Assembly: GCF_026151205.1 (NCBI RefSeq)
Contig: NC_087077.1
Location: 3,286,001 to 3,350,000, forward strand
Source: Bolinopsis microptera
Taxonomy: Eukaryota > Ctenophora > Tentaculata > Lobata > Bolinopsidae
Reading direction: 5' to 3'
DNA: 64,000 nt
Part shown: positions 22,674 to 64,000 of the stretch, one piece after another
How the letters are laid out: each line of letters starts with the position of its first letter
Numbering within the stretch: position 1 is the first letter of the stretch
The notes under the pieces: model-generated
Databases searched by the model: none
The model's input: only the letters and a program-made list of their open reading frames with translations
Told to the model about the DNA's origin: nothing
Position numbers and translations under genes: made by a program

Positions 22674-23780
22674 TGTAAGCAGTCATCACTTGCTTCAGAT
22701 TCGTAGATTATTTGTAGTAATTTAGGTTACGAACAACAAAAACGAAAGTAATAATTATGGTAAAAAAGGGTAAGAAACAAAATGATTAACAATCCAATTA
22801 CCTTACTTATCACCCTCGTTAACCGTCTCTAACGGAGTCTTACCCTTAAACTACACTTACATAACACTGCACTTTTAGCCCTCGCTGACCGTCCTTATAT
22901 CAGGCCCAAATCCACTATAGTTCATTCTCGCTCTACCTGAGCCCGATTGTTGTTGACACGAACCCACTCGTGTTGGATTAACCTGTGTTAACCCTGGCTA
23001 CAACACAGCCTATTCCTGCTCTCCTGAGTTAACCAATGTTGACTCTCCCTACGCTTAAGCCATACTGCTCATGTCCTCCGCACAGTTCCACTAACTACAG
23101 ACCACGATAATGCTCTCTCCAGGACCCTAACGTAAGCCAGAGTGCTCATGTCCTCCGCACAGTTCCACTAACTACAGACCACGATAATGCTCTCTCTAGG
23201 ACCGTAACATAACAGGTCCTGGCTCCAAAGTGTCCTACATCAATGACCCTCCTCGAATCGGGCAAACTCGATCTCTCCTTTGCCAGGTCCAGCCCCCAGA
23301 TATAAATACTGCCACGTCCGTGGTTTTTCACCCGACCTCTCTAACCAGACTCACGTGCCCCTGCTCACACCTTTGGCAGCTGGTCTTATCTCCCATTAAA
23401 GCTTCATTGTCCCGAGTCCAGGTGTTACGACTATTCATCTTTTTACCAAAGCTTCCTGTCTGATGACCTCTGAATCCATAGTTTGTTAGAGCTCACATCT
23501 ATCTTTGACTCTCTATCTACACAAAGGGTTTACGTCTGAGTTCTCCTAGAACCATTGTCTCTCCTCCAGAGTGACATATTTCTCGTCCGTCCAGGTGAGG
23601 TCCAACCCACAATCTCCATTGTATTCTCTTTCTCTAACTTTCCCTAACCACAGACCAGAACTGGATGTTCCACTTCCACTGCCTTATTACACAATACTGC
23701 CTTATTACACAATACTGCCTTATTACACAATACTATCTAAAATCTATCAAATAATCTAGATCAAATAATCACGGCTTACA
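22674..23780 (-). repeat. LTR, full copy (3' LTR of the complex), 1107 bp
   Basis: On the minus strand it begins TGTAAGCC at 23780 and ends GCTTACA at 22674. A TATA-like TATTTATA sits at 23308-23301 and could be the LTR promoter. The LTR contains a ~75 bp direct duplication (about 23068-23216, sharing CTCATGTCCTCCGCACAG) and a triple 18 bp repeat near 23680-23730 (CTTATTACACAATACTGC). Confidence 0.75.
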
Positions 23781-24145
23781 CAACTTTACAAAATATGATC
23801 TTTTTTAGAACTTTACTATAATATGTAGTATAATAATTTAATAGAACATCTCGTATAGTACTACAGACTATATTCCATATCAGCTTCTATTCGCTCAATA
23901 TTCACAGCTTACACAACTTAACAAAATCTGATCTTTTTTAGAACTTTACTATAATAGTATAATAATTTAATAGAAAATCTCGTACTACAGACTCTATTCC
24001 ATGCTTGCTCCTAATCACTAAATATTCACGGCTTACACAACTTTACAAAATCTGAGCTTTTTTAGAACTTTACTATGATAGTGCATATAATAACTTTATA
24101 GAAAATCTCGTACTACAGACTATCGTTCCAAGACTATCTTCAACT
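23769..24145. repeat. Three tandem ~125 bp repeats inside the LTR element
   Basis: Each copy starts CACGGCTTACACAAC-like and continues with TTTTTTAGAACTTTACTATAATA and GTACTACAGACT. The LTR end motif GCTTACA recurs at the start of each unit. Confidence 0.7.
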
Positions 24146-28120: not shown

Positions 28121-29266
28121 TGATCTAGATTATTTGATAGATTTTAGATAGTATTGTGTAATAAGGCAGTATTGTGTAATAAGGCAGTATTGTGTAATAA
28201 GGCAGTGGAAGTGGAACATGGGCAGTATTGTGTAATAAGGCAGTATTGTGTAATAAGGCAGTGGAAGTGGAACATCCAGTTCTGGTCTGTGGTTAGGGAA
28301 AGTTAGAGAAAGAGAATACAATGGAGATTGTGGGTTGGACCTCACCTGGACGGACGAGAAATATGTCACTCTGGAGGAGAGACAATGGTTCTAGGAGAAC
28401 TCAGACGTAAACCCTTTGTGTAGATAGAGAGTCAAAGATAGATGTGAGCTCTAACAAACTATGGATTCAGAGGTCATCAGACAGGAAGCTTTGGTAAAAA
28501 GATGAATAGTCGTAACACCTGGACTCGGGACAATGAAGCTTTAATGGGAGATAAGACCAGCTGCCAAAGGTGTGAGCAGGGGCACGTGAGTCTGGTTAGA
28601 GAGGTCGGGTGAAAAACCACGGACGTGGCAGTATTTATATCTGGGGGCTGGACCTGGCAAAGGAGAGATCGAGTTTGCCCGATTCGAGGAGGGTCATTGA
28701 TGTAGGACACTTTGGAGCCAGGACCTGTTATGTTACGGTCCTAGAGAGAGCATTATCGTGGTCTGTAGTTAGTGGAACTGTGCGGAGGACATGAGCACTC
28801 TGGCTTACGTTAGGGTCCTGGAGAGAGCATTATCGTGGTCTGTAGTTAGTGGAACTGTGCGGAGGACATGAGCAGTATGGCTTAAGCGTAGGGAGAGTCA
28901 ACATTGGTTAACTCAGGAGAGCAGGAATAGGCTGTGTTGTAGCCAGGGTTAACACAGGTTAATCCAACACGAGTGGGTTCGTGTCAACAACAATCGGGCT
29001 CAGGTAGAGCGAGAATGAACTATAGTGGATTTGGGCCTGATATAAGGACGGTCAGCGAGGGCTAAAAGTGCAGTGTTATGTAAGTGTAGTTTAAGGGTAA
29101 GACTCCGTTAGAGACGGTTAACGAGGGTGATAAGTAAGGTAATTGGATTGTTAATCATTTTGTTTCTTACCCTTTTTTACCATAATTATTACTTTCGTTT
29201 TTGTTGTTCGTAACCTAAATTACTACAAATAATCTACGAATCTGAAGCAAGTGATGACTGCTTACA
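28121..29266 (+). repeat. LTR in inverted orientation
   Basis: Reverse complement of 22674-23763. It lacks the first 17 bp of the LTR and has an extra ~60 bp tandem duplication near 28187-28262 (repeated AGGCAGTGGAAGTGGAACAT). It ends with GCTTACA followed by AATAATTG rather than the PBS. Confidence 0.75.
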
Positions 29267-30518
29267 AATAATTGCTGGAAACATGGAGACATTGGAAGAA
29301 GATACATGGAGACATTGGAAAGAGACACGTGAAACATTAGAAGGAGACACGTGAAACATTAGAAGAAGACACAGATATGGAAAGCTGGAGGGACGGACAG
29401 TACGATAATACAGGGAACTGTCCAAAATGTTGGAAAACGAGCGGAAGACGGAGACATGGTGTGAGAAGAAGAGAAAGACGCAGAGAGGTTGATAGTTAAG
29501 AGGAACACCAGTGGAACAAGAGAGATACACAGTAAAAGAAACAATAGAACGATGTTGGGAGGAGACTCGGAGACTTGGAGACTTACCAGGTTGTAAATAC
29601 ATTCTAGTAGGAGAAGTTGATCCAAAAGGTTTTACGCTATTCTTCCAACCTAAAAACGAAAAGATTTGATAGATGTGGAAGAGTAATGAATTTATAAAGT
29701 AAACTTAGACTGGATTGAATAACTATGGGGGATTATCATCCCCCAGGGGCGTTGGAGAAAAGCTGATCAATACATACCTTGAAATGAAGATAGGGAGCGA
29801 ATCTAATCATCCGGAGAGGAGCTGCTCACCATATCATTTTGGATAGGAAGACTTGGAGTCGGAGGCCACAAGTGGAGTGGGGAGAAGTACCCGACGCAAA
29901 GTACTGCTCAAAAGTGACAGAAGGAGGAGGAGCAGAGGGATCGTCAGAAGAACTGATTTCGCCATGTTGTAGTGTTGTACAGAGTCAGACATAATTAAGA
30001 CGGAGTGAAGTAAGTCAAGCATTATACTTATATAGACAATAGAACATAATATGAAGATAAACAGTGAATAGATGGCCCGTCATGGGGTTCAAAAAGGAAC
30101 AATTTTATTTGGTTCTGGGACAGAGTAATGAGTTTGGTAGAGTAAGAATTTTGAAAAGTGAGTTGAAGATAGTCTTGGAACGATAGTCTGTAGTACGAGA
30201 TTTTCTATAAAGTTATTATATGCACTATCATAGTAAAGTTCTAAAAAAGCTCAGATTTTGTAAAGTTGTGTAAGCCGTGAATATTTAGTGATTAGGAGCA
30301 AGCATGGAATAGAGTCTGTAGTACGAGATTTTCTATTAAATTATTATACTATTATAGTAAAGTTCTAAAAAAGATCAGATTTTGTTAAGTTGTGTAAGCT
30401 GTGAATATTGAGCGAATAGAAGCTGATATGGAATATAGTCTGTAGTACTATACGAGATGTTCTATTAAATTATTATACTACATATTATAGTAAAGTTCTA
30501 AAAAAGATCATATTTTGT
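29267..30518 (+). repeat. Inverted copy of part of the element interior
   Basis: Reverse complement of about 23783-25025. It starts just after the inverted LTR, with the PBS-side half of the interior deleted, and stops at TTTTGTAA where a direct-orientation LTR piece begins with a 3-4 base overlap. Confidence 0.75.
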
Positions 30519-31436
30519 AACACTGCACTTTTAGCCCTCGCTGACCGTCCTTATATCAGGCCCAAATCCACTATAGTTCATTCTCGCTCTACCTGAGCCC
30601 GATTGTTGTTGACACGAACCCACTCGTGTTGGATTAACCTGTGTTAACCCTGGCTACAACACAGCCTATTCCTGCTCTCCTGAGTTAACCAATGTTGACT
30701 CTCCCTACGCTTAAGCCATACTGCTCATGTCCTCCGCACAGTTCCACTAACTACAGACCACGATAATGCTCTCTCCAGGACCCTAACGTAAGCCAGAGTG
30801 CTCATGTCCTCCGCACAGTTCCACTAACTACAGACCACGATAATGCTCTCTCTAGGACCGTAACATAACAGGTCCTGGCTCCAAAGTGTCCTACATCAAT
30901 GACCCTCCTCGAATCGGGCAAACTCGATCTCTCCTTTGCCAGGTCCAGCCCCCAGATATAAATACTGCCACGTCCGTGGTTTTTCACCCGACCTCTCTAA
31001 CCAGACTCACGTGCCCCTGCTCACACCTTTGGCAGCTGGTCTTATCTCCCATTAAAGCTTCATTGTCCCGAGTCCAGGTGTTACGACTATTCATCTTTTT
31101 ACCAAAGCTTCCTGTCTGATGACCTCTGAATCCATAGTTTGTTAGAGCTCACATCTATCTTTGACTCTCTATCTACACAAAGGGTTTACGTCTGAGTTCT
31201 CCTAGAACCATTGTCTCTCCTCCAGAGTGACATATTTCTCGTCCGTCCAGGTGAGGTCCAACCCACAATCTCCATTGTATTCTCTTTCTCTAACTTTCCC
31301 TAACCACAGACCAGAACTGGATGTTCCACTTCCACTGCCTTATTACACAATACTGCCTTATTACACAATACTGCCTTATTACACAATACTATCTAAAATC
31401 TATCAAATAATCTAGATCAAATAATCACGGCTTACA
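30516..31436 (-). repeat. Partial LTR at the outer edge of the complex
   Basis: Equivalent to 22862-23780. It shares about 100 bp of LTR sequence with the partial LTR at 27827-28117, so the two pieces cannot come from a simple cut of one LTR. Confidence 0.75.
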
Positions 31437-33429: not shown

Positions 33430-34035
33430 GACATTAAGACAACATTAAGACAACATTAAGACAACAATAAGACAACATTAAGACAACATTAAGACAACAA
33501 TAAGACAACGTTAACGCAACAAACACCAATAAGACAACAAACGATAGGACAACATTAAGACAACATTAAGGCAACATTAAGGCAACATTAAAGCAAACAT
33601 TAAGACAACATTAAGACAACATTAAAGCAACAATAAGACAACAATAAGACAACAATAAGACAACAATAAGACAAGATTAAGACAACAAACACCGATAAGA
33701 CAACAAAATAGGATAAAATATTAAGACAACATTAGGACAACATTAAGACAACATTAAGACAACAAACTCAATTAAGACAACATTAAGACAACATTAAGAC
33801 AACAAACTCATTTAAGACAACATTAAAACAACAAATTCTTTAAAACAACATTAAGACAACAAACTCGTTTAAGACTACATTGATGCAACAAAATGTTTAG
33901 AATATGTAATATACGGCCGGGATTTCATTGCCGCGGTTAAAAAGGGTAGGATTATTAAACACACAGATTTTTATCTGTTAAGATACTTTGGACTGCTAGT
34001 TAAAAGTCGGAAATTTAAACTGATGCTTAATTTAT
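33430..34035. repeat. ATTAAGACAAC minisatellite with unique tail, copy 1
   Basis: About 40 copies of an 11 bp unit (ATTAAGACAAC, with AATAAGACAAC variants) to 33890, followed by a non-repetitive tail (from AATGTTTAGAATATG to about 34035). The same array plus tail occurs at 35671-36187. Confidence 0.85.
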
Positions 34036-34059
34036 AATGAAACTAGAAACCCGCCGCTA

Positions 34060-34627
34060 GTCGAAAGCTTTGTTCGAGGAAATTTTAAGCATCAGTTATG
34101 TTTTAATTTCTCTTCATCATATAGCCCCAAAACGATACTTTTTACCGCATCAAAAAATTTCAATCACAACCAAAGTTATAAATATATATAGGTATATAGC
34201 GTCATGAGGGTAAATGTGAGCTAGTTGTGAAATTCTGACGTAGCATACAGCATAACACCGCGCGTTGAAATCCGCTGTAGTCGACACTATAAGGGAGCGA
34301 ATTTAATTAGAAAACAACAATATTTTTGTTGATTGTGTGTGCGCGGCGTAATGTCAGCATTGTGTGTAGCTCTAGCGAATTTTAAAAAATCAGTTATGTT
34401 TTAATTTCTCTTCATCATATAGCTCTGTTATACTGTAGACATAATGGAATTTATCTAACAATGGCGACAGCGTTGTTAGTATTCGGATTCCCAAAACGAT
34501 ACTTTTTCATTTTTACCGCATCAAAAATACCAATCACAACCAAAGTTATGAATATAAGTCATAGCGTGAGCGTAAATGTGAGCTAGTTTTGAAATTATGA
34601 CGTAGCAATAGCATACAGCATAACAAC
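34060..34627. repeat. Two diverged direct repeats with palindromic end
   Basis: 34095-34270 and 34385-34627 share CAGTTATGTTTTAATTTC, TCTTCATCATATAG, CCAAAACGATACTTTTT and AATCACAACCAAAGTTAT. Both end with a copy of GACGTAGCATACAGCATAAC-like sequence, which is the reverse complement of the start of the following 363 bp unit, so a foldback forms at 34590-34680. Confidence 0.65.
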
Positions 34628-35354
34628 GCGCGTAGTTATGTTGTATGCTACGTCATAATTTCAAAACTATGCTCGCGCACGTGCATTTTAACGTTGCTAC
34701 GCAACAGCGCAGTAAACCTTTGCTAAAATAACGACATTATTCTAACGGTTATTTTACCTCACTTCCGACGTTAATTATAAAAAATCTAAAGCCTAAATCA
34801 AAATTCTAAGAATGCTATAGCCTATTCCTATCCTTTTTCTACCACCCTGCTAAAAATGGCGAGGTTTCAACACCATTTGCGAGCTGGGTTTGGCATCACC
34901 AGAGGGTCATTTTGAGGTCAATTTTCGGTGTTTTTTCTTCTATGTCCCCGTTGCCGGGGAAATTTCGTCAAGTTTAAAATATAATATAGAGCGCGTAGTT
35001 ATGTTGTATGCTACGTCATAATTTCAAAACTATGCTCGCGCACGTGCATTTTAACGTTGCTACGCAACAGCGCAGTAAACCTTTGCTAAAATAACGACAT
35101 TATTCTAACGGTTATTTTACCTCACTTCCGACGTTAATTATAAAAAAATCTAAAGCCTAAATCAAAATTCTAAGAATGCTATAGCCTATTCCTATCCTTT
35201 TTCTACCACCCTGCTAAAAATGGCGAGGTTTCAACACCATTTGCGAGCTGGGTTTGGCATCACCAGAGGGTCATTTTGAGGTCAATTTTCGGTGTTTTTT
35301 CTTCTATGTCCCCGTTGCCGGGGAAATTTCGTCAAGTTTAAAATATAATATAGA
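34628..35354. repeat. 363 bp tandem duplication
   Basis: Two nearly identical adjacent units (34628-34990 and 34991-35354) beginning GCGCGTAGTTATGTTG and ending AAATATAATATAGA. They differ by one A in an A-run. Each contains the small hairpin CCCCGTTGCCGGGG. No coding signal. Confidence 0.85.
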
Positions 35355-35494
35355 TAACTGGTTTACAATATAATGATGATAAATTGATACTGAAATAACT
35401 GGTTTACAATATAGAATAAAACAAATATCTTAATAACGAGTTTTAGGCTTCAGGGCGTTTCCTTGAGCATAAAGGCGTGCTAGGTCTCTATGTT

Positions 35495-35668
35495 TTCTGT
35501 TGCAGATATCTTTTGCCGCTGGGTATACGGTTTGGAGCGTTACTTTACGTAGCTGCATAGTCGAGGATTTGTGGACCCGGTCACTGGTGTTCACACCAAC
35601 AGCTGCGAAGGGATGTGGTTCAAGTTTAAGGAGTATACTTATTTTGGGTTTTGGTGTATATTTTCCCC
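35495..35668 (+). pseudogene. Merlin (IS1016/ISXO2-like) transposase remnant
   Basis: One frame carries H-S-R-G-F-V-D-P-V-T-G-V-H-T-N-S, then C-E-G-M-W-F-K-F-K. This fits the C-terminal DDE region of the ISXO2/Merlin family (pattern VNHS..FVDP.TG.HT..IE..W...K). The preceding A-G-Y-T-V-W-S is in a shifted frame and a TAG stop precedes the motif. It ends abruptly at the start of the second minisatellite. It is a dead fragment of a cut-and-paste transposase. Confidence 0.55.
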
Positions 35669-35670
35669 AC

Positions 35671-36187
35671 TTAAGACAACATTAAGACAACAATAAGACA
35701 ACGTTAACGCAACAAACACCAATAAGACAACAAACGATAGGACAACATTAAGACAACATTAAGGCAACATTAAGGCAACATTAAAGCAAACATTAAGACA
35801 ACATTAAGACAACATTAAGGCAACAATAAGACAACAATAAGACAACAATAAGACAACAATAAGACAAGATTAAGACAACAAACACCGATAAGACAACAAA
35901 ATAGGATAAAATATTAAGACAACATTAAGACAACATTAAGACAACATTAAGACAACAAACTCATTTAAGACAACATTAAAACAACAAATTCTTTAAAACA
36001 ACATTAAGACAACAAACTCGTTTAAGACTACATTAATGCAACAAAATGTTTAGAATATGTAATATACGGCCGGGATTTCATTGCCGCAGTTAAAAAGGGT
36101 AGGATTATTAAACACACAGATTTTTATTTGTTAAGATACTTTGGACTGCTAGTTAAAAGTCGGAAATTTAAACTGATGCTTAATTTA
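35671..36187. repeat. ATTAAGACAAC minisatellite with unique tail, copy 2
   Basis: Direct repeat of about 33470-34035, including array variants (a shared GTTAACGCAACAAACACC interruption) and the same tail. The pair brackets about 1.6 kb. Confidence 0.85.
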
Positions 36188-59700: not shown

Positions 59701-62700
59701 CGGGCTCAGGTCAGTAGGGGGGGGCCTGGGGGTGAAGTGGGGCTGGGGTGGGGGGCTCAGGTCAGTAGGGGGTTGGGCTGGGGGGGGGGGACCAACACCT
59801 GATTATTTCCCTAGACATGCATTTTTCATCAGAAAACAACTTCCTTAATAGTCTAACTTATTTGTTGAGCAGTTCCACCTCATAAGATTTAACTAAATTT
59901 GGAATTATCAACGGCTGAATCAATCGAGAAATTACACAGAAGTGTAACTGTAATTCTGGTGTCTGGACTCAAGGGCATGAAACTCTAAAGAATAAGGAGC
60001 AGCTTTTCTGATGTAACTGAACTTGAAGGATATAAAATAATATTTACTTCAAAACTTGACCATATTTTGCTCAAGGGGTTACTACTTAATGCCAGATTAA
60101 CAGTACAATGTGTTTAATAAAGTGCTCAAATTCCCAAGTACTTGAAACATGTATAAGATTGGAAATAAGATGTTTAACAGAAAGTTCTAGAAGTTTCCAA
60201 GTAATCAGAACATGTTAACGTTTCAGGTCGATAGTGAGGAAGCACAGATACACTAAACACTGGCTAGTAGATGTGGCACTCAGACTGGTTACTGTTCTTG
60301 CTCTGGATAGGTTCGGGGACTACGTCTCTCACGAGGTAAGTACTCATCTCGCTTATCTTATCTCAACTCGCTTATCAACGAATGCAAAATTATGATGGTA
60401 ACGCGAATGTACCCAACTGGTGGTAGAGAAAACTGACCGTCCGTGGAGCTTTGTTGCTATCCTCTAGATTTAACAGTTTAAGGGATCTCAATCCGATTAA
60501 TTATAGTTAACATTATGAAATTAATATTACAAATAACATTATAATAACCCTACAGGTAGTAGCACCAGTGCGAGAAACAACAGCCCAAGTGTTAGGTATA
60601 ATATCCTCCCACCTCCCTATAGAGGACATGTTGCTGCTACAAGGACTCTTCCTACAACTGCTGGGGAGTGGGGAGTGGCAGGCTCGACATGGTGGGCTAC
60701 TAGCTATAAAGTACCTGCTAGCTGCTAGACAGGTTAGTGGGGAGTGGCAGGCTCGACATGGTGGGCTACTAGCTATAAAGTATCTTCTGGCTGCTAGACA
60801 GGTTAGTGGGGAGTGGCAGGCTCGACATGGTGGGCTACTTGCTATAAAGTACCTGCTGGCTGCTAGACAGGTTAGTGGGGAGTGGCAGGCTCGACATGGT
60901 GGGCTACTAGCTATAAAGTACCTGCTGGCTGCTAGACAGGTTAGTGGGGAGTGGCAGGCTCGACATGGTGGGCTACTAGCTATAAAGTACCTGCTGGCTG
61001 CTAGACAGGTTAGTGGGGAGTGGCAGGCTCGACATGGTGGGCTACTTGCTATAAAGTACCTGCTGGCTGCTAGACAGGTTAGTGGGGAGTGGCAGGCTCG
61101 ACATGGTGGGCTACTAGCTATAAAGTACCTGCTGGCTGCTAGACAGGTTAGTGGGGAGTGGCAGGCTCGACATGGTGGGCTACTTGCTATAAAGTACCTG
61201 CTGGCTGCTAGACAGGTTAGTGGGGAGTGGCAGGCTCGACATGGTGGGCTACTAGCTATAAAGTACCTGCTGGCTGCTAGACAGGTTAGTGGGGAGTGGC
61301 AGGCTCGACATGGTGGGCTACTAGCTATAAAGTACCTGCTGGCTGCAAGACAGGTTAGTGGGGAGTGGCAGGCTCGACATGGTGGGCTACTTGCTATAAA
61401 GTACCTGTTGGCTGCTAGACAGGTTAGTGGGGAGTGGCAGGCTCGACATGGTGGGCTACTTGCTATAAAGTACCTGCTGGCTGCTAGACAGGTTAGTGGG
61501 GAGTGGCAGGCTCGACATGGTGGGCTACTTGCTATAAAGTACCTGTTGGCTGCTAGACAGGTTAGTGGGGAGTGGCAGGCTCGACATGGTGGGCTACTTG
61601 CTATAAAGTACCTGCTGGCTGCTAGACAGGTTAGTGGGGAGTGGCAGGCTCGACATGGTGGGCTACTTGCTATAAAGTACCTGCTGGCTGCTAGACAGGT
61701 TAGTGGGGAGTGGCAGGCTCGACATGGTGGGCTACTTGCTATAAAGTACCTGTTGGCTGCTAGACAGGTTAGTGGGGAGTGGCAGGCTCGACATGGTGGG
61801 CTACTTGCTATAAAGTACCTGCTGGCTGCTAGACAGGTTAGTGGGGAGTGGCAGGCTCGACATGGTGGGCTACTTGCTATAAAGTACCTGCTGGCTGCTA
61901 GACAGGTTAGTGGGGAGTGGCAGGCTCGACATGGTGGGCTACTTGCTATAAAGTACCTGTTGGCTGCTAGACAGGTTAGTGGGGAGTGGCAGGCTCGACA
62001 TGGTGGGCTACTAGCTATAAAGTACCTGTTGGCTGCTAGACAGGTTAGTGGGGAGTGGCAGGCTCGACATGGTGGGCTACTAGCTATAAAGTACCTGTTG
62101 GCTGCTAGACAGGTTAGTGGGGAGTGGCAGGCTCGACATGGTGGGCTACTTGCTATAAAGTACCTGCTGGCTGCTAGACAGGTTAGTGGGGAGTGGCAGG
62201 CTCGACATGGTGGGCTACTTGCTATAAAGTACCTGCTGGCTGCTAGACAGGTTAGTGGGGAGTGGCAGGCTCGACATGGTGGGCTACTTGCTATAAAGTA
62301 CCTGTTGGCTGCTAGACAGGTTAGTGGGGAGTGGCAGGCTCGACATGGTGGGCTACTAGCTATAAAGTACCTGCTGGCTGCTAGACAGGTTAGTGGGGAG
62401 TGGCAGGCTCGACATGGTGGGCTACTAGCTATAAAGTATCTTCTGGCTGCTAGACAGGTTAGTGGGGAGTGGCAGGCTCGACATGGTGGGCTACTAGCTA
62501 TAAAGTACCTGCTGGCTGCTAGACAGGTTAGTGGGGAGTGGCAGGCTCGACATGGTGGGCTACTAGCTATAAAGTACCTGCTGGCTGCTAGACAGGTTAG
62601 TGGGGAGTGGCAGGCTCGACATGGTGGGCTACTAGCTATAAAGTACCTGCTGGCTGCTAGACAGGTTAGTGGGGAGTGGCAGGCTCGACATGGTGGGCTA

Positions 62701-63423
62701 CTAGCTATAAAGTACCTGCTGGCTGCTAGACAGGTTAGTGGGGAGTGGCAGGCTCGACATGGTGGGCTACTTGCTATAAAGTACCTGCTGGCTGCTAGAC
62801 AGGTTAGTGGGGAGTGGCAGGCTCGACATGGTGGGCTACTTGCTATAAAGTACCTGCTGGCTGCTAGACAGGTTAGTGGGGAGTGGCAGGCTCGACATGG
62901 TGGGCTACTAGCTATAAAGTATCTTCTGGCTGCTAGACAGGTTAGTGGGGAGTGGCAGGCTCGACATGGTGGGCTACTTGCTATAAAGTACCTGCTGGCT
63001 GCTAGACAGGTTAGTGGGGAGTGGCAGGCTCGACATGGTGGGCTACTAGCTATAAAGTACCTGCTGGCTGCTAGACAGGTTAGTGGGGAGTGGCAGGCTC
63101 GACATGGTGGGCTACTAGCTATAAAGTACCTGCTGGCTGCTAGACAGGTTAGTGGGGAGTGGCAGGCTCGACATGGTGGGCTACTAGCTATAAAGTACCT
63201 GCTGGCTGCTAGACAGGTTAGTGGGGAGTGGCAGGCTCGACATGGTGGGCTACTAGCTATAAAGTACCTGCTGGCTGCTAGACAGGTTAGTGGGGAGTGG
63301 CAGGCTCGACATGGTGGGCTACTTGCTATAAAGTACCTGCTGGCTGCTAGACAGGTTAGTGGGGAGTGGCAGGCTCGACATGGTGGGCTACTAGCTATAA
63401 AGTACCTGCTGGCTGCTAGACAG
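56733..63423 (+). CDS. BTAF1: BTAF1/Mot1 (TBP-associated factor 172), 5' exons with repeat-expanded exon 9
   Basis: Exons, with all phases consistent: 56733-56743, 57042-57165, 57716-57818, 58675-58790, 58963-59112, 59242-59351, 59533-59709, 60227-60335, and 60556 to either 60732 or 63423. The predicted N terminus ([17 protein letters not shown]) and following blocks ([37 protein letters not shown]) match animal BTAF1. BTAF1 is a Swi2/Snf2 ATPase whose N-terminal HEAT repeats grip TBP and remove it from DNA. Only the HEAT part is in the window; the ATPase lies downstream. Exon 9 ends at [10 protein letters not shown], then L-L-A-A-R-Q, like the vertebrate protein, after which the sequence repeats this block 39 more times in frame. 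Confidence 0.88.
56866..57035. repeat. TTAAATATG microsatellite in BTAF1 intron 1
   Basis: About 15 copies of a 9 bp unit (TATGTTAAA) with interspersed TACATACACTATGTAAGA blocks (seen twice), ending just before the exon 2 acceptor at 57040-57041. It produces a false minus-strand frame. Confidence 0.85.
57193..57260. mobile_element. Possible pogo/Tigger-like terminal fragment in BTAF1 intron 2
   Basis: TTACAGTAGAACCTCTGTTATATAA-like sequence (starting CAGTAGAACCTC) resembles a pogo-type terminal repeat, preceded by TA. The other end is not convincingly found. Confidence 0.3.
58216..58338. mobile_element. Possible MITE in BTAF1 intron 3 (imperfect TIRs)
   Basis: AGGGGTCGTTCAAATATTACG at the left faces CGTAATATTGGTCCCT at the right; the arms pair imperfectly (AGGG, then CAAATATTACG versus CCAATATTACG). 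The length is about 120 bp. No clear target duplication. Confidence 0.5.
58516..58638. mobile_element. 123 bp MITE with TA duplication (Tc1/mariner type) in BTAF1 intron 3
   Basis: Near-perfect inverted ends CCTTAGTCGGTAATATTATG and its complement, each about 24 bp including a G/C run, with TA directly outside both ends (58514-58515 and 58639-58640). The right end is 36 bp before the exon 4 start at 58675, so the insertion lies close to the branch-point region. Confidence 0.85.
59704..59790. repeat. G-rich duplicated splice-donor segment after BTAF1 exon 7
   Basis: GGGCTCAG|GTCAGTAGGGG at the exon 7 end (donor at 59710) is repeated about 52 bp downstream (GGGCTCAGGTCAGTAGGGG around 59754-59772). 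The spacer and the following sequence contain several G-runs of 4-10 bases, a strong G-quadruplex candidate on the sense strand. Confidence 0.75.
60733..63423 (+). repeat. 69 bp tandem array, 39 complete units, in BTAF1
   Basis: Exactly 39 units of 69 bp (2691 bp, no indel) follow the original copy at 60664-60732. Each unit starts GTTAGTGGGGAGTGG, contains GGCAGGCTCGACATGGTGGG and ends GCTGCTAGACAG. Each is 23 codons of identical peptide ([10 protein letters not shown], then [13 protein letters not shown]). The variants I saw (CTA/CTT, CTG/TTG, TACCTG/TATCTT, GCT/GCA) are all synonymous. The unit joins the exon end to the first bases of the intron donor (CAG|GTTAGT), so every unit repeats a potential 5' splice site. 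Confidence 0.92.
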
Positions 63424-64000
63424 GTTAGGCGCTGTTTTTCAGGGTTTTTTTAGGATTCTTATATACCATTAGATTTAATTGTGCGAATATATTACCTTCC
63501 ATATATAATATATAATATGACTTAATATATGTATTATTATACCAATAGAAACGACCGGTTGTATTGAGTCAGATAAATGTTTCAATCGTGCAAAACCATG
63601 ATATCATCAGTGACAACATATTACTATATGTATCATGTATGCTGATAAATTTCTAGCACTCAGTTAATTATGTACATAATTGGTTCATCAAGAGATCAAG
63701 GTCAAACACTCCTCTTTCAACACTAGTCTTTCAATCAACTCTCTTTCAAACACTCCGCTTTCAATCACTCCTCTTTCAAACACCTCTTTCAAACACTCAA
63801 ATTAAATGACTGTGTGTTACTTTATCATTGTGTTCCAAAAGAAGAGACTTCAACCCCTTATCTTATGACATTTGGGGCTATTAAAGAAAATAAACTTGCT
63901 AAATGAAAGAATGCCAGACACCACCTGCCCTGTTGTTATGATAACATTTGGCACAGGCTATATTGTTTCCTTAACCACAGTGCTTACTCATATCACAGAT
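63424..64000. other. BTAF1 intron following the array
   Basis: Starts GTTAGGCGCTG after the last CAG, a plausible donor. It includes a CTCCTCTTTCAAACA-type short repeat at 63705-63800. No further exon is seen before the window ends. Confidence 0.6.

Follow-up and report, generated by a model that had tools for sequence, protein, structure and literature searches.

The question raised by this locus is whether a long tandem array at the end of an exon of BTAF1 (Mot1) in the ctenophore Bolinopsis microptera is translated, or whether nearly all of it is removed as intron. The window, meaning the whole stretch of DNA that was analysed, comprises 64,000 nucleotides (nt) of the forward strand of contig NC_087077.1 (RefSeq assembly GCF_026151205.1, positions 3,286,001 to 3,350,000), and coordinates refer to it unless another stretch is named. 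With moderate confidence, the array is taken here to be a splice-junction minisatellite that is spliced mostly from its first donor. The features on which this reading turns are the following (a slash within a motif marks the splice site):

60667..63428, plus strand: 69-base-pair (bp) tandem array of 40 units followed by AG (Tandem Repeats Finder, unit splitting, variant table).
60556..60732, plus strand: BTAF1 exon of 177 nt with acceptor CCCTACAG, ending ...KYLLAARQ at the first donor in phase 0.
60733..60738, plus strand: first 5′ splice site, CAG/GTTAGT, at the exon edge; 38 identical copies follow at a spacing of 69 bp.
63424..63429, plus strand: last 5′ splice site, CAG/GTTAGG, about 1.3 bits below the other donors by a generic consensus.

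The anatomy of the array can be read directly from the letters. Direct splitting yields 40 exact 69-bp units (one exonic and 39 further ones) at 60667-63426, after which two bases, AG, remain, and Tandem Repeats Finder reports 60667-63428 with a period of 69, 40.0 copies, 98% matches and 0% insertions or deletions; both agree with an earlier reading of the same DNA (the original prediction), which had counted 39 perfect-length units after the original copy. Its span of 60664..63423 starts 3 nt too early, the array beginning at 60667, and ends at the last base before the last donor. Each unit combines the final 66 nt of the BTAF1 exon with GTT, the three bases that open the intron, and encodes 23 residues in the exon frame, which runs unbroken from the exon through all 40 units, as the proposed in-frame expansion demands; a chance open frame is ruled out, since the unit is exon sequence. 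Because AG is common to both unit ends (a two-base match), each unit junction recreates CAG/GTTAGT. The order of unit types is FDABBABABGCACAACAACEEAACBDBBBBAADABBBBAB, followed by the two-base tail, and a DNA search with the exon region as query returned the locus as unique in the 264.65-megabase genome. The minus strand of the array is likewise open (window 60513-63449, 978 codons), and two of the six changes between units are replacements there.

Every unit therefore carries a 5′ splice site of its own: 39 donors read CAG/GTTAGT and the last one CAG/GTTAGG, and CAG/GTTAG occurs 40 times in the array and 45 times in the window, against 1.8 expected. The donor scoring table and the rather crude splice-site scan use a generic consensus, in which T is commoner than G at donor position +6; this favours the 39 internal donors over the last. 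The possible outcomes of splicing are framed by three further features:

60227..60335, plus strand: preceding BTAF1 exon (open frame, and splice-site scan with the generic consensus), donor GAG/GTAAGT at 60336.
60733..64000, plus strand, running past the window to window-equivalent 64058: intron of 3326 nt if the first donor is used.
Window-equivalent 64059, plus strand, beyond the window: acceptor of the next exon, TTGTTCAG/GATATAACG, read in stretch L009 and placed by homology.

The next exon begins in phase 0 with GATATAACG (DITPQ...), and this acceptor was chosen because Mot1 continues ...R-K-D without a gap; an acceptor AG before 63981, also in phase 0 and with a higher score in the crude scan, was set aside on the same grounds of homology. 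Counted directly, all 40 of the 40 donors give an in-phase, open message to the next exon, and the open frame is in phase with both neighbouring exons (the preceding junction being taken from the splice-site scan). Use of the first donor leaves a 177-nt exon and a 3326-nt intron, while use of the last one produces a 2868-nt exon, 897 more residues and a 635-nt intron. The predicted gain of about 900 residues corresponds to this upper bound, reached from the last donor.

A plausible course of events would begin with the tandem duplication of the 69-bp exon-intron stretch described above, the AG match lying at the break, and we infer that expansion to 40 copies then proceeded via block duplication or unequal exchange. 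The first, exon-edge donor would be the one mainly used, giving a normal mRNA that encodes ...AARQ/DITPQ..., and the other 39 units would be removed as intron. Since the period equals 23 codons and the intron is in phase 0, the use of a later donor would insert a whole number of 23-residue units without disturbing the frame, and an array of this kind would be unusually tolerable. No difference exists among donors 1 to 39, even though silent changes that weaken them are available and would be favoured under translation; this supports the intron reading. Indeed, weakening or loss of internal donors, which is expected for a translated expansion, was looked for among the 39 and not found; all are intact and identical.

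Arrays at splice junctions also exist elsewhere in this genome. Under criteria of at least four copies, a period of at least 20 and at least 90% match, 16 arrays occupy 11.5% of a 224-kilobase (kb) sample from outside the window (200 kb at fixed places and 24 kb of follow-up stretches), so that a 40-unit array is ordinary here. Among ten arrays whose flanks were inspected by eye, three straddle a splice junction:

L026 3231-5235: CEP192, 5′ splice site covered by a 43-bp array of about 46 copies, in which the donor CCAG/GTGAG occurs 46 times.
L026 7312-7963: CEP192, 69-bp array of 9.4 copies over a 3′ splice site.
L031 2862-7109: 35-bp array of about 121 copies; each unit takes in the last part of an EGF-like exon together with a donor, GTAAGTA.

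The first gene is identified as CEP192 by the exons beside the 69-bp array, which match the Pfam family Cep192_D5 at 8.7e-8, while the exon at the 43-bp array reaches Cep192_D3 at 0.012 only, below the cut-off; the EGF-like assignment is weak (best E 0.02, below the cut-off), and Pfam searches with four joined array units returned no match above the cut-off. In the CEP192 43-bp array the exon frame hits a stop in the second unit (L026 3304), so donor 2 brings a frameshift and donors 3 to 46 all follow a stop; in the CEP192 69-bp array a stop stands in frame 6 nt ahead of the exon, and in the 35-bp array the exon frame stops inside the array. Since read-through meets stops, the CEP192 and EGF-like genes must use the exon-edge copy to work. 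Like the BTAF1 array, these arrays are long and homogeneous, with a unit that contains a splice junction; unlike it, the 43-bp and 35-bp periods break the frame, the exon frame of the CEP192 69-bp array is interrupted by a stop, and the one array of the two genes with a testable open frame shows one silent and five replacement changes.

The main rival builds on the translation originally suggested: in it the array is exon, splicing starts from the last donor or a late one, and BTAF1 gains up to 897 residues in its HEAT region, with 39 extra 23-residue helices placed between two helices of that region and selection removing replacements. The array is open throughout with all 40 donors in phase, and several observations weigh on this side or against splicing from the first donor: (i) the remaining 635-nt intron is typical of the gene and closer than one of 3326 nt to the lengths of its 17 other introns (53 to 856 nt in the crude scan, of which the two shortest are probably spurious), (ii) cis-competition experiments reportedly often favour the downstream one of two equal donors, (iii) little came of scoring donors in the first units of 17 arrays against shuffled versions (BTAF1 0.10, CEP192 43-mer 0.02, most not significant) and (iv) all variation between units is silent, the one observation that the favoured reading explains poorly. 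An intron of 3.3 kb is not odd as such, since the same gene has an apparent intron of about 28 kb, and, because donor scoring was mostly not significant, the claim that such arrays form a class is based on junction reading, frames, Pfam and motif counts. A translated array, however, would have to ignore 39 internal donors that are nearer the generic consensus than the last one, and would have lost none of them, although silent changes could do that; the three splice-junction arrays elsewhere in the genome stop on read-through, and a single replacement among 40 redundant helices should hardly matter. With a good 5′ splice site in every unit and these stops elsewhere, the step from silent-only variation to translation is not supported, and the exon reading is judged rather unlikely. 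When 450 residues of the array were folded with AlphaFold2 without an alignment, one helix per unit was predicted at a confidence too low to be informative (predicted local distance difference test, pLDDT, 48; predicted template modelling score, pTM, 0.25).

The silent-only pattern deserves a closer look. Six unit sites vary, all of them silently in the exon frame, as had been noticed before: (i) position 36, with 21 A and 19 T interspersed along the array, (ii) and (iii) positions 48 and 51, which always change together, in three units, (iv) position 52, variant in seven units, (v) position 54, variant in the exonic copy only and (vi) position 60, variant in one unit. Of these, the original prediction lists all variants but one, the CTA/CTG change in the exonic copy. 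Read in any of the five remaining frames, 0 to 4 of the same six changes would be silent. The chance that a random unit change is silent is 0.27-0.29, so the synonymous excess for which a test had been proposed comes out at P 0.00035-0.0006 for six events, 0.0013-0.002 for five (paired sites counted once), 0.005-0.007 for four (the exonic copy left out as well) and 0.019-0.024 for three. In simulations of a simple intronic array, with selection on the exonic copy only, 2 of 2329 runs that ended with five to seven changes were all-silent. The comparison with other arrays of the genome, ten of which were split into units, points the same way: four of them had open frames, and in none of these 11 frames was the variation silent-only, the best being 40% silent, so that the premise that neutral repeats carry amino-acid changes holds at least for these four. 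More specifically, silent changes have a density of 0.33 per silent site in the BTAF1 array, inside the range of seven comparators, whereas no replacement is seen against the 8.7 to 31.7 predicted by six of the seven; the lowest prediction, from comparator L021, is 1.6 replacements, with P(0) = 0.21. The six variable sites also cluster within 25 of the 69 unit positions (P about 0.02).

The pattern is thus a real anomaly, based on few events and so of limited weight. The alternative that had already been raised, a few founder variants spread by exchange, would seldom produce it, all-silent runs being rare in the simulation, unless silent exon alleles were imported; such import by haplotype exchange may weaken the anomaly, and we infer a combination of few old variants, perhaps brought in as silent exon alleles, with chance.

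The anomaly may be weakened further if the sequence is the published B. microptera assembly, as short-read polishing may then have flattened rare variants. According to PMC10232365, wtdbg built that assembly from PacBio reads, pilon then polished it against Illumina reads, and its annotation drew on Iso-Seq and RNA-seq. If this is the source, both copy number and uniformity could partly be products of assembly, given that such a procedure can even out rare variants between units and arrive at a wrong number of copies. The BTAF1 array has two singletons only, and another array of the genome ends in what look like errors: a 51-bp array running from L015 7200 to near the end of L035 has error-like final units with long runs of T and C, which suggests that assembly in long arrays is unpolished. 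On the other hand, singletons are kept in other arrays (1 to 14 in each of ten, some of which may be errors), the BTAF1 units have exact lengths, and the A/T variant, near 50:50 and interspersed, was not flattened. A partial origin of copy number and uniformity in assembly is given little credence.

A further alternative, which overlaps with the favoured reading in that the first donor may still dominate, is graded in-phase splicing: the first few donors would be alternatives, BTAF1 isoforms would carry 0, 23, 46 and so on additional residues, and the early units alone would be coding. The identical donors, all in phase and each followed by a G-rich stretch, would permit this, and there is a precedent in human IFI6 (6-16, G1P3), whose minisatellite, with a 12-nt unit, is said to supply multiple splice donors (reportedly described in Nucleic Acids Res in 1995). 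Graded use would, however, leave the late units unprotected from replacements, and this version can be put forward only tentatively.

The IFI6 minisatellite, as reported, is a known example of the many-donor class, of which the BTAF1 array appears to be a variant. Both lie at an exon-intron boundary with a donor in every unit, and in both the unit length is a multiple of three, so that alternative donors stay in frame; unlike the one in IFI6, the BTAF1 unit is 69 nt long, mostly exon, present in 40 copies and part of the gene of an essential transcription regulator. Coding minisatellites, such as those of mucins, likewise have many in-frame and near-identical units, usually with replacements, and differ from the BTAF1 array in having no donor in every unit. 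In potato RdRp, an intron was gained by tandem duplication across an intron-exon boundary (PMC4974935). There, as in BTAF1, the duplication crosses the boundary and carries splice signals along; whereas one duplication created a new intron in RdRp, in BTAF1 the 5′ end of an existing intron has been multiplied 40-fold. Among the listed papers of the open literature on minisatellites, splice donors and ctenophores, no account of this BTAF1 array was found.

Motif counts give a genome-wide hint of a tendency of tandem arrays to include donors. MAGGTRAGT occurs in tandem triples 1523 times and its reversed form 60 times, a 25-fold excess, while single motifs (10,382 against 8,307, array-internal matches included) differ 1.25-fold. 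Matches inside one array are not independent, and the 100 places listed, which all fall on contig C1 (for example C1:428573-430927), correspond to nine arrays, with periods of 54 (including steps of 55, 56, 58 and 59), 28, 44, 24/25, 38, 23, 15/16, 49 and 25. One period is mainly a multiple of three (54 bp), two are mixed (24/25 and 15/16) and six are not. In-frame periods are therefore not favoured among the listed C1 arrays. The motif triples, counted irrespective of exon flanks, suggest that in this genome 5′ splice sites are places where arrays preferentially originate or persist. A bolder proposal would combine such genome-wide array growth favouring 5′ splice sites with a BTAF1 of adjustable length, in which splicing from the 40 in-phase donors adds 0 to 39 HEAT helices of 23 residues to the TBP-gripping region, so many of them translated that selection has held the protein sequence of each unit constant; taken as a whole, it is regarded as doubtful.

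What the locus means depends on which donor is used. Should the first donor be used, the array is a natural experiment in which 40 near-identical donors follow one another in an essential gene and an exon-edge rule applies; should the array be translated, a conserved transcription regulator would have undergone a very large and recent expansion in frame. A preference of arrays for 5′ splice sites would in either case bear on how introns grow.

From its sequence, the gene that hosts the array is BTAF1/Mot1, as originally named, and shows no sign of truncation. When joined to the exon that follows, the BTAF1 array exon matches Mot1-type PDB chains (7zb5, 6g7e, 7z7n and 7z8s) at about 7e-15, the best being 7zb5, named ‘Helicase-like protein’, at E 6.8e-15, and matches Encephalitozoon cuniculi Mot1 at E 1.7e-4; the HEAT region of the gene is thus similar to Mot1. 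Two exons about 6 kb downstream of the array exon match DUF3535 above the Pfam cut-off (C6:3352866-3353335, the second together with neighbours), the sole place returned from the genome. Further on, at window-equivalent 97.5-113 kb on the same strand, a reading by motif finds GLGKT, DEGH, SGTPIQN and GLGLNL, which we take to be C-terminal motifs of an SNF2-type ATPase. A pseudogene or truncated gene had been considered when the first 30 kb downstream showed no ATPase motif, and was dropped once the motifs appeared.

The apparent intron of about 28 kb in BTAF1, placed by eye (window-equivalent 67.8-95.8 kb; stretches L009, L010 and L012), contains long open frames on both strands, including a minus-strand frame of 240 codons at 68461-69180 and long plus-strand frames at 87735-90948 that resemble, by eye, an LDL-receptor-type protein and a membrane receptor. 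Within the intron that follows the BTAF1 array, a further tandem repeat lies at window 63702-63798, with TCAAACACTCCTCTT-like units of 15/44 bp. Elsewhere in the window, repeat modules recur at 23056-24123, 28150-30520 and 30712-31390, where 77-bp and 18-bp arrays appear three times (once inverted) and a 124-bp array two times, one of these in inverted orientation. At window 33431-36052, arrays of TTAAGACAACA-like units form two similar blocks that flank a duplicated 364-bp unit, the two copies of which (window 34628-35354) are 99% identical.

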